A stretch of 64,000 nt of DNA from contig JADQCE010000001.1 of the NCBI GenBank assembly GCA_016278265.1, forward strand, positions 248,001-312,000, written 5' to 3'. The DNA is from Halothiobacillus sp. Its GTDB lineage: Bacteria; Pseudomonadota; Gammaproteobacteria; Halothiobacillales; Halothiobacillaceae. Below are positions 12,352 through 64,000 of this stretch, one piece after another. Made by a program: the position numbers and the translations under genes. How positions within the stretch are numbered: position 1 is the stretch's first letter; every line of letters begins with the position of its first letter. A model generated the notes under the pieces. The model searched no databases. It was not told the DNA's origin and worked only from the letters and a program-made list of their open reading frames with translations.

Positions 12352-12446
12352 GGCTGAGTCTCCGTGTGCGTTATGTGGGGCATCGTCGGCACGTGTGCGA
12401 TCGATACCGCCTCGTTCTGTAATGCCGCGCCGGGGTCAGTGCGATC

Positions 12447-12476
12447 AAAAAGGCCACACCGTGTCGGGCATGGCCT
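12447..12476 (-). terminator. Terminator between the two entericidin genes
   Basis: On the minus strand AGGCCA (12476-12471) pairs with TGGCCT (12456-12451) and is followed by a T-run to 12447. It lies just past the stop of the upstream entericidin copy, so the two copies are probably separate transcription units. Confidence 0.6.
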
Positions 12477-12501
12477 CGATTCGCCCGGGTGGCAGAGGGC
12501 G

Positions 12502-12654
12502 TCAATCGTGCTCGGCGGCTTCGCCTTCGATTGATTCGCCCAGTTCCTGGGTATCCTGGCCCAAGCCTTCCATCGTGTTGCAGCCGGCCAGCAGGGTAAG
12601 CGAGCCTGCCATGGCAATCAGCATCGCAAGCCGTTTGAGAAATGTTTGAATCAT
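12502..12654 (-). CDS. Entericidin-like small lipoprotein (copy 1)
   Basis: A 50-residue lipoprotein with signal peptide and lipobox LLAGC (Cys25), followed by NTMEGLGQDTQELGESIEGE. It is a clear paralogue of the 12202-12351 product, sharing CNTMEGLG and the SIEG/AIEG segment. Entericidins come as toxin-antidote pairs in enterics; which copy would play which part, or whether the pair works that way here, cannot be told. ATG 12654 has GAGG nine bases upstream. Confidence 0.87.
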   Translation of the reverse strand: MIQTFLKRLAMLIAMAGSLTLLAGCNTMEGLGQDTQELGESIEGEAAEHD

Positions 12655-12832
12655 TATCCGGTACCTCTTCCATTGTTCCCTACGGACACTCCGAGCGAAC
12701 CGGCAAGGTTTCGGAGGTTTGAGCCGAAGATCACATCGTTGCCGATTCATTCGGGTAGTACCTAGGATAGTCCAATGGCAACAAGGTTCCCGATCGGATC
12801 CGTCGGTTCGGGTGAATGGATAAGGAGATGGC

Positions 12833-14035
12833 GTGGAAATACTGCTGATCGGTGTCCTGCTGCTGGCCGGTTTGGCCTTCGGCACATTGGGAAGCCATTA
12901 CTTCGGTGTCCCAAGGGTGGTCGGCTACATCCTGATCGGGATGCTGTTCGCGCCGGCTCTCCTCGGCGGGCAGCTGGGCATGACGGATACCGAATGGACC
13001 CAACCGCTCGTATCGGTGGCCCTCGGCATCATTGCCTACGTGATTGGCGGGGCCATCTCTCTGGGACAGTTGCGTCGTCTCGGCTGGAGCATTGTCGGGG
13101 CGACGCTGGGCGAGGTTTCGGGTGCCTTCCTGGCGGTGTTTGGCGCCGTCCTGCTGCTGGGGCTGACGGTGGCCGACCTGCCGCTGTGGTCGTTCGCACT
13201 GGTGCTGGCTGCGGTCGCTCCTGCCACCGCTCCCGCGGCCATCGTGGCGGTGGTTCACCAATATCGGGCCCGCGGGAAATTGACCACCACGCTGCTCGGC
13301 ATGGTGGCGATCGATGATGCGTTGGGAATCCTTATTTTCGCGCTGGTGATGGCCGCCGTGAGTAGCGGCTCACTCGGCGGTGCGCTGGGTATGGCCTTCT
13401 GGGAAATCGGCGCGGCCCTGATCGCCGGCGGTCTTGGCGGCTTTCTGATCGAGCGCCTGTCGCGCCGGTTTCATGAGCAGAGCATGCTGGTGCCGTTGCT
13501 GCTGGGAGGGATTCTCCTGATCGTCGGGCTGGCCGAATGGGCCGAGTTCTCGGCGCTGCTGGCGGCGATGGTGCTCGGCGTGTCGGTGCGCTGGTTTTGC
13601 GGCTCGCACGCCGAGCGACTGCTCGAACCGATCGAGGATCTGGAAGAAGCGGTCTTCGTCTTGTTCTTCACCTTCGCCGGCATGCACTTTGACCCGATGG
13701 GGGTGGTCGACTTTTGGCCGCTGATGCTGGCCTATTTCGTTGCCCGGGCGGTTGGCCTGTTCCTCGGTGGCGGCAGCGGCGCTCGATTGGCCGGGGCGCC
13801 CAGGGAGGTCTGGTCCAACGTCGGTTTCGGCCTGTTCCCTCAGGGGGGTGTCGCCATCGGGCTCGCGCTGCTGCTGACCCACCGCCCCGGGTTCTCGCAG
13901 GCCGGCGAAATTATCGTCAACCTGATCACGGCCACGACACTGCTGACCGAGTCGGTGGGGGCGATCTCGGTGCGTTATGGTCTGAGTCGGGCGGGTGAAA
14001 TCGGTCTTGAACAGGCCGGAGGGAAGGCGAAATGA
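12833..14035 (+). CDS. CPA2-type cation/proton antiporter
   Basis: The 400-residue product is almost entirely hydrophobic with roughly 11-13 membrane helices. Features of the CPA2 (Kef/NhaS-like) group are the first helix pair with FGVPRVVGYILIGML, the helix-breaking APATAPAAIVAVV and the ion-binding MVAIDDALGIL carrying the paired Asp. It probably exchanges Na+ or K+ for H+ at the inner membrane. There is no C-terminal TrkA-N domain, unlike KefB/KefC. The start is GTG 12833 with AAGGAG five bases upstream. Its last four bases overlap the start of a CBS-domain gene, indicating translational coupling. Confidence 0.88.
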   Translation: MEILLIGVLLLAGLAFGTLGSHYFGVPRVVGYILIGMLFAPALLGGQLGMTDTEWTQPLVSVALGIIAYVIGGAISLGQLRRLGWSIVGATLGEVSGAFLAVFGAVLLLGLTVADLPLWSFALVLAAVAPATAPAAIVAVVHQYRARGKLTTTLLGMVAIDDALGILIFALVMAAVSSGSLGGALGMAFWEIGAALIAGGLGGFLIERLSRRFHEQSMLVPLLLGGILLIVGLAEWAEFSALLAAMVLGVSVRWFCGSHAERLLEPIEDLEEAVFVLFFTFAGMHFDPMGVVDFWPLMLAYFVARAVGLFLGGGSGARLAGAPREVWSNVGFGLFPQGGVAIGLALLLTHRPGFSQAGEIIVNLITATTLLTESVGAISVRYGLSRAGEIGLEQAGGKAK

Positions 14036-60935: not shown

Positions 60936-61012
60936 GCGCCCGTAGCTCAGCTGGATAGAGTGTCGGCCTCCGAAGCCGAAGGTCACAGGTTCGAATCCTG
61001 TCGGGCGCACCA
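60936..61012 (+). tRNA. tRNA-Arg (anticodon CCG)
   Basis: A 77-base cloverleaf: acceptor GCGCCCG/CGGGCGC, D arm GCTC/GAGT, anticodon stem TCGGC/GCCGA with loop CTCCGAA (anticodon CCG, reads CGG), T stem ACAGG/CCTGT and encoded CCA. It is a single gene with a strong terminator 19 bases later. Confidence 0.95.
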
Positions 61013-61100: not shown

Positions 61101-64000
61101 TTACGATTCTGGCGTGTCGAGGTGCTCGCAGATCTGACGGTTGTTGATCAGGCAGTGGGTGAGTTCTTCGAGCGGCATGGGCTTGGCGAACAGGTAGCCC
61201 TGCAGGATGTCGCAACCCCAGCCGACCAGGATGTCGCGCTGGGCCTCGGTCTCGATGCCCTCGGCGACCACCTTGATGCCCAGGTGGTGGGCCATCGAGA
61301 TCACCCCTTGCACGATCGCCGCGTCGTCGGCGCTGTGCTCCACGCCGCTGATGAAACTGCGATCGATCTTGAGCTTGTCGATCGGCAGGTGCTTGAGATA
61401 GCTCAGGCTGGAAAAGCCGGTGCCGAAATCGTCGATCGAGATGCTGATGGTGCTGTCGCGCAGCTGGTGCAGGGTCTCGATGGCCGTTTCGGTCTCGTTC
61501 ATCAGGATGCCTTCGGTCAGTTCGAGTTCCAGACGATTGGCCGGCAAACCACTGAGCTCGAGCATCCGTCGAATGGTGGCCAGGAAGTTGGGGCGATTGA
61601 ACTGGATCGGCGAGAGATTGATCGCCATCCGGCCTTCGGCCATGCCAAGGTCGACCAGCGTCTTCATGTCCCGACAGGCGCGTTCCAGGACCCACTCGCT
61701 CAGGGGGATGATCTGGCCGGTTTCCTCCGCAAGCGGAATGAAGGTGGCCGGCGAGATCCAGCCGTGGCTGGGGTGATGCCAGCGCAATAGCGCCTCGAAC
61801 CCGGCGATTAAGCGCTCCTTGCCCAGCACCAGCGGTTGATAGAACACCTGGAAGTCACCGCGTTCCAGTGCCTCCTGCATGTCATTGCGCAGACCCACCC
61901 GCTGACGCACTTGAGTGTTGATCTCCTCGTTGAAGATCTGGCAGGTGTCATGCCCCTGTTGCTTGGCCCGGTACATGGCCATGTCGGCCTGCTGGATCAG
62001 GGTGCCGGGGTTCTCCATGTTCGGCTCGCTGATGCCGATGCCGATGCTCGCGCTCAAGTACAACTCGTGACCGTCGATGCGATAGGGCCGGCTGATCTCC
62101 GGCAGCAGTCGCTCGGCGACCAGCATTGCCTCTTCCTCGCCGTCGATGTCGGCGAGCAGGGTGACGAACTCGTCGCCACCGAACCGGGCCAGCGTGTCTT
62201 CTGCCCGCATCTGGCCTTCGAGCCGGCGAGCCACTTCGATCAGGATCTTGTCGCCCACGGCGTGACCGAGGCTGTCGTTGATCGGCTTGAATTCGTCGAG
62301 ATCGATGAAAAGCACCGCCGCGCGGGTGCCGCGGCGCCGGGTCAGTTCGATGGTGTGTCTCAGACGATCTTCGAACAGGCTGCGATTGCCCAGTCCCGTG
62401 AGGGCATCGTGGGTGGCATTGAAGGCCAGTTGCGCCTCATAGGACTTGTGTGCCGATACGTCGTTCTGCAGGCCGACGAAGTGGGTGATCTCGCCGTGCT
62501 CGTCCTCGACCGGGGCGATATGCAACTCGTTCCAGAACTGGCTGCCGTCCTTGCGGTAGTTGCGCAGCAGCACGCGCACCGGTTGGCGGGCGGCCAGTCC
62601 GTCGTGGATCTCTGCGATCGCGGTGGGATCCGTCTGCTCGCCCTGCAAGAAGCGACAGTTGCGCCCCAGTACCTCGTCGGCACGATAGCCGGTGATCTGG
62701 CTGAAGGCAGCATTGGTGTAGACGATCGGCAGGTCGGGTTTCTTCGCGTCCGCGATCACCACGCCGTGCATGCTGGCCTCGACACTGCGCTCGAGCGTGC
62801 GCAGGCGTCGTTCCTGGCGCTTGCGCAGCGTCACGTCCTTGGCAATGCCGTAGGCCGCCTCGATCCGGCCGTTGATCACCATCGGCAGGAAGGTGACGTC
62901 GAATTCGTGTCGACTGGCGTCGTCGTGCGTGACGGTCAGTTCCGCAACCTGGGTCCGGCCACGAAGGGTGCGCTCGATTGCCTGCTGTACCGCCTCCCGC
63001 TCGGAGGAGTCGATCAATTCGATCAGCGACTGATCCGCAATCTCGTCGGAGGAGCGATTGAGCATGGTTTCGGTGGTGTGATTGAACGTCCGCAGCCGTC
63101 CCTGGTTGTCCAACGAGAAGACCGCGTCGGGGTTGTAGGTGAACAGCGAGCGATAGCGTTGCTCGTTCTCTTCGAGGGCGATGCGATCGCGGTGACGCTC
63201 GATGGCCAGTGAGACCAAGTCCGCCGCGCGCGCAATCTGGCGGCGATGAGTCTGAGAGGGCCTGCCGGAAGTATTGCGGTAGCTGGCAAAGGTGCCGAGC
63301 ACCTCGCCGTTGGAGGCCAGCAGCGGGTAAGACCAGCAAGATCGCAGACCATCCTCGGTTGCCAGTTCGGCGAAACCGGACCAGCGTTCGTCCTGTGCGA
63401 TGTCTTCGGTGAACACCGGCTCCCGGCGGTGTGCCGCCGTGCCGCAGGTGCCGATGTCGGTGATCGGGATCATGGTCATGGCCGCGCGGTACGCGCCATT
63501 TAAGCTGGGCGCGGCGGCCAGGTGCAGGTTCTCGCCGGTCGCGTCGCTGAGCATGATCGAACAGCGCGAGTCGGGATCGTGCTCCTCCATGAGCTCGCAC
63601 ACCGAGACCAGCGTGTGCTCAAGCGAATCCGAGTGCAGAATCATCTGCTGAATGATCTGTTGTGATTCGAGTTCGCGTCGGGCGCCTGACAATCGGCGGG
63701 TCTGCTTGAGTCGGCTGCGTCCCAGTGCCAGCAGCAGGACAACCAAATGGGTGATCGCGAGACCGACCAGGGCAACAGCCGATGGCAGCACGGCGGCGAG
63801 GGCCGGTTGTTGCCCTTCCTCGAGGTAACTTGTGGCGGTCACGTTCGGCCCGAAGGGCAGTGTCAATTCCCTTTGGGCCAGCGCCACCTGATGATCATGG
63901 TGCGCCGGGTCGCTGCGGAGCTCGATGTGGGCGCCTTCGGCAAAATCGAGATGCACGGACAGCGGCCGGGTGGTCGGTCGCATCGCCCTTTCGATTAGGC
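61101..64000 (-). CDS. GAF-PAS-LOV-GGDEF-EAL signalling protein (5' end cut by window)
   Basis: The frame is open to the window edge, so the N-terminus is missing; numbering here is from ATG 63983, which may not be the start. Residues 1-64 look extracytoplasmic, 65-88 form a membrane helix, then GAF (about 105-262), PAS (265-385), a second PAS with all LOV flavin residues (GRNCRFLQ with Cys443, Asn475, Asn485, Gln506), GGDEF (602-606, with RAED product-inhibition site) and EAL (730-732 in EALLRW, with DDFGTG and AEGIET). It can plausibly both make and break c-di-GMP, with blue-light sensing inferred. The EAL end precedes a strong shared terminator. Confidence 0.93.
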   Translation of the reverse strand, partial: LIERAMRPTTRPLSVHLDFAEGAHIELRSDPAHHDHQVALAQRELTLPFGPNVTATSYLEEGQQPALAAVLPSAVALVGLAITHLVVLLLALGRSRLKQTRRLSGARRELESQQIIQQMILHSDSLEHTLVSVCELMEEHDPDSRCSIMLSDATGENLHLAAAPSLNGAYRAAMTMIPITDIGTCGTAAHRREPVFTEDIAQDERWSGFAELATEDGLRSCWSYPLLASNGEVLGTFASYRNTSGRPSQTHRRQIARAADLVSLAIERHRDRIALEENEQRYRSLFTYNPDAVFSLDNQGRLRTFNHTTETMLNRSSDEIADQSLIELIDSSEREAVQQAIERTLRGRTQVAELTVTHDDASRHEFDVTFLPMVINGRIEAAYGIAKDVTLRKRQERRLRTLERSVEASMHGVVIADAKKPDLPIVYTNAAFSQITGYRADEVLGRNCRFLQGEQTDPTAIAEIHDGLAARQPVRVLLRNYRKDGSQFWNELHIAPVEDEHGEITHFVGLQNDVSAHKSYEAQLAFNATHDALTGLGNRSLFEDRLRHTIELTRRRGTRAAVLFIDLDEFKPINDSLGHAVGDKILIEVARRLEGQMRAEDTLARFGGDEFVTLLADIDGEEEAMLVAERLLPEISRPYRIDGHELYLSASIGIGISEPNMENPGTLIQQADMAMYRAKQQGHDTCQIFNEEINTQVRQRVGLRNDMQEALERGDFQVFYQPLVLGKERLIAGFEALLRWHHPSHGWISPATFIPLAEETGQIIPLSEWVLERACRDMKTLVDLGMAEGRMAINLSPIQFNRPNFLATIRRMLELSGLPANRLELELTEGILMNETETAIETLHQLRDSTISISIDDFGTGFSSLSYLKHLPIDKLKIDRSFISGVEHSADDAAIVQGVISMAHHLGIKVVAEGIETEAQRDILVGWGCDILQGYLFAKPMPLEELTHCLINNRQICEHLDTPES

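Follow-up and report, generated by a model that had tools for sequence, protein, structure and literature searches.

A Guyparkeria membrane protein that very probably links a blue-light LOV domain to c-di-GMP-making and -breaking domains

The long open frame at the end of the DNA analysed here (a stretch of 64,000 nucleotides, the window) raises two questions: whether it encodes a true blue-light receptor fused to the domains that make and break c-di-GMP and, if so, which of these two activities light would favour. The frame, on the minus strand at 61101-63998, is real and extends past the window end. Read on the same contig, the full gene occupies G000:C10:309101-313135 (L011:1102-5136) and encodes 1344 amino acids from a GTG start; about 72% of this protein falls within the window, which leaves out the N-terminal membrane sensor. 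The host, whose genome measures 2.73 Mb, is a species of Guyparkeria, of the Halothiobacillaceae, sulfur oxidisers. The closest named relatives of the part of the protein within the window belong to Guyparkeria species (77-89% identity), and in the tree it groups beside Guyparkeria sp. SCN-R1.

Immediately downstream of the gene, on the opposite strand, lies a tRNA-Arg (CCG) at 60936-61012. Upstream, a small ICMT/PEMT-like methyltransferase gene stands between it and a divergent set of ovothiol genes just beyond the window end; within L011:5924-9378 (+) are the biosynthesis gene ovoA, both of whose NCBIfam halves score far over cut-off, and a gene for a PatB-family C-S lyase (ovoB-like). This methyltransferase/ovothiol gene order is syntenic in five other Halothiobacillaceae loci; since nothing beyond synteny links these neighbours to the LOV protein, we rejected them as its partners. 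A scan for promoters and terminators gave no usable result.

From its N terminus the protein runs through seven predicted transmembrane helices, a periplasmic Cache-like domain, a further transmembrane helix and then GAF, PAS, LOV, GGDEF and EAL domains, of which the window contains the following:

61101-63998, minus strand: C-terminal 965 residues (380-1344) of the 1344-residue GAF-PAS-LOV-GGDEF-EAL membrane protein; the gene runs on to G000:C10:313135
63780-63998, minus strand: end of the predicted periplasmic Cache-like domain, residues 380-452 (whole domain about 226-452); AlphaFold2 model of an orthologue and VIA-align against the PDB
63723-63779, minus strand: transmembrane helix that follows the periplasmic domain, residues 453-471; hydropathy 2.67 across 19 residues, helix in the AlphaFold2 model
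63198-63629, minus strand: GAF domain, residues 503-646; Pfam GAF_2, E 8e-17
62811-63161, minus strand: first cytoplasmic PAS domain, not LOV, residues 659-775; best stretch for Pfam PAS_4
62436-62786, minus strand: LOV domain, residues 784-900; NCBIfam YtvA_fam, 157 bits; PDB sequence and fold matches are LOV
62400-62462, minus strand: LOV-to-GGDEF linker, 21 residues (892-912), from the Asp of DVS to the Leu of DALT; definition of PMC10396304
61947-62417, minus strand: GGDEF domain, residues 907-1063; Pfam E 3.1e-48
62196-62207, minus strand: inhibitory-site RAED, intact; motif reading
62166-62180, minus strand: GGDEF motif, intact; motif reading
61176-61886, minus strand: EAL domain, residues about 1084-1320; Pfam E 5.7e-75
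61782-61796, minus strand: EALLR motif of the EAL domain; motif reading

The N-terminal 480 residues gave no Pfam match, and in a search for a Pfam name for the seven-helix part every family matched at most one of 35 members. In an AlphaFold2 model of the N-terminal region of the SCN-R1 orthologue (pLDDT 80) there are seven membrane-type helices; the seventh is prolonged as a long helix that leads into a domain of mixed alpha/beta structure, and a second long helix comes after it. Model residues about 214-442 match double-Cache and CHASE-type sensors (2p7j, 3lid; Z 15.5, rmsd 3.3, 204-207 residues aligned), and within the N-terminal region a fold match was obtained for this periplasmic part alone. 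Neither HAMP nor SBP_bac_3, the periplasmic-binding-protein sensor, has a Pfam match in the full protein, and the periplasmic part models as Cache-like. The domain set, including this fold match, thus makes the protein a predicted membrane receptor that has one sensory domain in the periplasm and three in the cytoplasm.

Is the last of these sensory domains truly of the LOV type? Pfam matches the region (residues 792-894) to PAS_9, in which LOV domains are included (PMC8846402); when models and structures able to tell LOV and plain PAS apart were consulted, a check proposed by the sequence-only reading, they chose LOV. The NCBIfam YtvA model scores 157 bits (E 6.5e-46), which is under its full-length cut-off of 250 because the match covers the LOV half of the model only. 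All the best PDB sequence matches are LOV proteins (MrLOV, CagFbFP, YtvA, PpSB1, the Brucella LOV-HK and phototropins), the top one at 139.6 bits (E 3.6e-40), and all 50 fold matches listed for a structure model of the domain (pLDDT 87) are LOV, several of them with 0.5-0.8 A rmsd over the core. The residues concerned are these:

62655-62657, minus strand: photoactive Cys827 in GRNCRFLQ; kept in all Guyparkeria orthologues
62604-62606, minus strand: His844 (+17), where other LOV domains have the second FMN-phosphate Arg; residue reading, PMC4335406
62559-62561, minus strand: Asn859 (+32), of the flavin-contacting Asn pair; residue reading
62529-62531, minus strand: Asn869 (+42), of the same pair; residue reading
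62466-62468, minus strand: Gln890 (+63), the signalling Gln; residue reading

The sequence-only reading had placed the Cys codon correctly, and the two Asn and the Gln stand at the distances that it gave; Asn826, Arg828 (+1), Leu830 and Gln831, further LOV residues, are also in place. In AsLOV2 of phototropin the pair is C450 and Q513, which puts the Gln at +63. The spacing of Cys, Asn, Asn and Gln here (0/+32/+42/+63) is that of AsLOV2, so the difference of two residues from YtvA (+61) needs no explanation.

These residues do not all weigh the same. We compared the domain with the ten other PAS/LOV stretches of the host genome that matched it; the Cys is present only in a short LOV protein of 162 amino acids, Pro takes its place in the nearest other stretch, and plain PAS domains of the genome score much lower. 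Asn at +32 recurs in five of the nine Cys-less stretches, and three Marinobacter relatives that lack the Cys have Asn at +42; hence neither is diagnostic alone. The Asn pair that had been offered as evidence for LOV is therefore present yet insufficient by itself; the Cys, the Arg at +1 and the Gln at +63 weigh more. That the domain is LOV, and that it is fused to GGDEF and EAL domains as first proposed, is strongly supported by the agreement of family models, PDB sequence matches, fold comparison, orthologue conservation and residues.

Two related sets of sequences may be recorded here. The nearest other stretch of the host genome is the first PAS domain of a PAS-PAS-GGDEF protein at L013:1269-2531 (-); it is LOV-like (75 bits to the LOV domain of the window) and keeps the Gln. 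LOV sequences with the Cys, the Asn pair and mostly the Gln occur on IMG/VR viral-class contigs (L135-L150), including L136 and L144 on contigs of 416,714 and 499,572 bases.

One position, absent from the sequence-only reading, departs from the pattern. Two conserved arginines, at +1 and +17, touch the FMN phosphate in LOV domains (PMC4335406); here the former is present as Arg828 and the latter is His844. In the seven other Guyparkeria orthologues the +17 residue is Arg in six and His in one (G003); His is also found there in one Pseudomonas and two Halomonadaceae relatives and in three of the viral-contig LOV sequences. The His may weaken FMN binding or alter the choice of cofactor, and we count it against the explanation that we favour. 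When R61 and R66 of PpSB1-LOV, further arginines of a four-arginine cluster and different positions from this one, were mutated, dark recovery became 280-fold faster (PMC5314338); by this analogy a changed photocycle lifetime is a fair guess for the His844 domain. A literature search on the second Arg by its phototropin number returned nothing relevant.

The full protein occurs in all seven of the Guyparkeria genomes that are at least 90% complete. Across seven orthologues of the genus, identity to the window protein is 80-90% in the LOV domain, 80-90% in GGDEF and 84-97% in EAL; it is 66-87% in the first PAS, 62-88% in GAF and 44-87% in the periplasmic part. By this measure LOV is the best-conserved sensory domain across the genus, and its Cys, both Asn and the Gln are invariant in all seven other orthologues. 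Elsewhere in the Halothiobacillaceae, in the sister genera, the LOV matches sit in short frames, one per genome.

The wider family (88 rows, 82 of them different, mostly from Halomonadaceae) is less uniform. The Cys is kept in 79 of the 88 rows and is replaced by Ala in three (L022, L025, L058), Gly in three (L035, L044, L086) and Val in three (L089, L092, L096), Cys-less orthologues being found in Halomonas and Billgrantia; the Gln gives way to Leu, Ile or Met in L021, L049, L050, L056, L057, L067, L068 and others. On a family tree built from GGDEF-EAL only, the state of the Cys changes at least four times and that of the Gln at least five, so the architecture does not everywhere depend on light sensing; this too we count against our favoured explanation. 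LOV proteins that lack the Gln are still able to signal (PMC9098866). The literature on LOV photoreceptors in Halomonas yielded passing mentions only.

What, then, would the domain control? LOV directly precedes GGDEF and EAL, as in SL2-type enzymes, and the catalytic motifs are intact, as the sequence-only reading had stated; EAL retains all of EALLR, NLS, ELTE, DDFGTG, KID, AEGIE and QGY. The nearest solved GGDEF-EAL unit is 5m3c (E 6.8e-122), which we take to be RmcA, and the nearest solved LOV-GGDEF pair is 8c05 (E 3.1e-53). Counted from D(I/V)(T/S) to DxLT (PMC10396304), the linker between LOV and GGDEF has 21 residues in every one of the 88 family rows, which places it in the short class. 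LOV-GGDEF constructs with this linker length, taken from LOV-GGDEF-EAL proteins, showed no light-regulated synthesis, and in such proteins light may act on the EAL domain (PMC10396304). Under blue light SL2, a LOV-GGDEF-EAL protein, breaks down c-di-GMP by hydrolysis; in vivo, RmcA works chiefly as a phosphodiesterase (PMC8846402). From the linker and the behaviour of these two proteins we infer that light would stimulate c-di-GMP breakdown by the Guyparkeria protein. Four PilZ proteins in the host genome are possible receivers of the signal.

Comparison with known systems sets the protein among several published relatives. SL2 of Synechococcus elongatus, a blue-light-activated c-di-GMP phosphodiesterase, likewise has a canonical Cys-bearing LOV before GGDEF and EAL, and the LadC paper assigns 21 residues to the LOV-GGDEF constructs of SL2's study (PMC10396304); the Guyparkeria protein differs in its added seven transmembrane helices, periplasmic Cache-like domain, GAF and PAS, and in the His that replaces the second of SL2's two phosphate arginines (PMC8846402). 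RmcA (PA0575) of Pseudomonas aeruginosa is also a membrane protein with a periplasmic sensor and PAS domains, the last of them LOV-like, ahead of GGDEF and EAL, but its periplasmic sensor is SBP_bac_3, its PAS domains number four and the Cys is missing from the LOV-like one, PASd (PMC8846402). RprR (Rsp0254) of Ralstonia pseudosolanacearum shares a periplasmic Cache, several PAS domains, of which one carries the LOV motif GRNCRFLH, GGDEF and EAL (PMC12802281); it has HAMP and three PAS domains, whereas the Guyparkeria protein has a seven-helix N terminus, GAF, PAS and LOV and no HAMP match in Pfam. For RprR, whose layout is similar, little blue-light-dependent transcription was seen (PMC12802281), which we again set against our explanation. 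LadC, the LOV-activated diguanylate cyclase of 8c05, resembles it in the coiled-coil linker that couples LOV to GGDEF; it differs in having no EAL (a domain present here, E 5.7e-75) and, in its crystallised long-linker form, a linker of 35 residues, 14 (two heptads) more. Light control of c-di-GMP had been called an unusual input, a view that finds no support: GGDEF, with or without EAL, is present in about 18% of bacterial LOV proteins (PMC4844311). LOV-GGDEF-EAL fusions are already well known, with SL2, RmcA, RprR and LadC published, and it is well supported that the Guyparkeria protein is a good new example.

The host genome holds a further sign of light sensing. The gene for the 162-residue short LOV protein (DCRFLQ, with both Asn and the Gln) adjoins a MerR-family gene; the pair lies at L012:1939-2427 (-) and L012:2462-3478 (-), about 12438-13977 on G000:C10. 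The best NCBIfam match of the MerR-family product is CarH, far under cut-off, and a B12-binding domain had no Pfam match in it. Judged by sequence, the arrangement looks like the class II LitR/short-LOV pair by which Pseudomonas mendocina controls light-induced genes (PMC9758184), and it makes real blue-light sensing in the lineage more likely. Short LOV frames occur in most genomes of the Halothiobacillaceae.

To the domain identity, residues, linker length, intact catalytic motifs and conservation observed here, the explanation that we consider probable adds a mechanism: a membrane-anchored, multi-input c-di-GMP enzyme whose Cys-bearing blue-light LOV, directly before the GGDEF-EAL tandem, would favour the EAL output in the light. 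The LOV domain would bind flavin, and blue light would form an adduct between Cys827 and flavin C4a. Gln890 would read the protonation of flavin N5, with a resulting change in the LOV dimer and in the helix leaving it that may travel through the 21-residue coiled-coil linker to a dimeric GGDEF-EAL unit. The likeliest net output would be stimulation of the EAL phosphodiesterase, and GGDEF would serve chiefly in relay or regulation; light would then lower local c-di-GMP and favour a less attached state. Upstream, the periplasmic Cache-like domain, GAF and first PAS would supply chemical inputs.

The domain might instead be photoactive and yet stimulate mainly the diguanylate cyclase, so that light raised c-di-GMP as in LadC. 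The GGDEF motif and inhibitory site are intact, the best structural relative of the LOV and GGDEF together is the light-activated cyclase 8c05, and short-linker LadC proteins keep moderate light activation (PMC10396304); set against the constructs of the same linker length that lacked light-regulated synthesis (PMC10396304), and against the phosphodiesterase behaviour of SL2 and RmcA in light, this leaves a rise in c-di-GMP unlikely. A flavin-binding domain used chiefly to sense redox, or some other input than light, with the Cys photochemistry vestigial or secondary, strikes us as still more doubtful. Such a role would accord with the Cys-less, LOV-like PASd of RmcA, tied to effects of both light and phenazine redox (PMC8846402), with the dark phenotypes of RprR (PMC12802281) and with the Cys-less orthologues of Halomonas and Billgrantia; it fits poorly with a Cys, Asn, Asn and Gln retained in every Guyparkeria orthologue examined, in the best-conserved sensory domain, and with the presence in the same genome of another LOV protein, a short one, whose gene neighbours a class II LitR-like gene, an arrangement that suggests functional blue-light sensing in the lineage.

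A chance resemblance of a plain PAS domain to LOV is scarcely credible. The bare Pfam name PAS_9 and His844 would suit it, but the specific models, the PDB matches and the fold matches are LOV, the residue pattern is fixed across the genus and within the host genome plain PAS domains have much lower scores. We rejected this reading on the models, the structures and the residues, and regard it as largely refuted.

The Guyparkeria protein, then, very probably senses blue light through its LOV domain and signals to the domains that make and break c-di-GMP. We found no report of light sensing for Guyparkeria, and in a pangenome paper on the genus (PMC9032823) the words "light" and "c-di-GMP" are absent. 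In Erythrobacter flavus a separate LOV kinase-cyclase pathway acts via c-di-GMP on thiosulfate oxidation (PMC12172448). It is conceivable, if rather doubtful, that a non-phototrophic sulfur-oxidising chemolithoautotroph here sets c-di-GMP by blue light by means of the Guyparkeria protein, with effects on attachment and possibly on sulfur metabolism, and that the intact, Gln-less and Cys-less series of the Halomonadaceae records repeated switching between light and another, perhaps redox, input. The orthologues with a natural replacement of Cys or Gln in a similar architecture form a ready set for asking when a LOV domain signals light and when something else. For Guyparkeria itself, studied for sulfur oxidation and bioleaching, the prediction is that blue light is sensed and that this sensing is linked to c-di-GMP.
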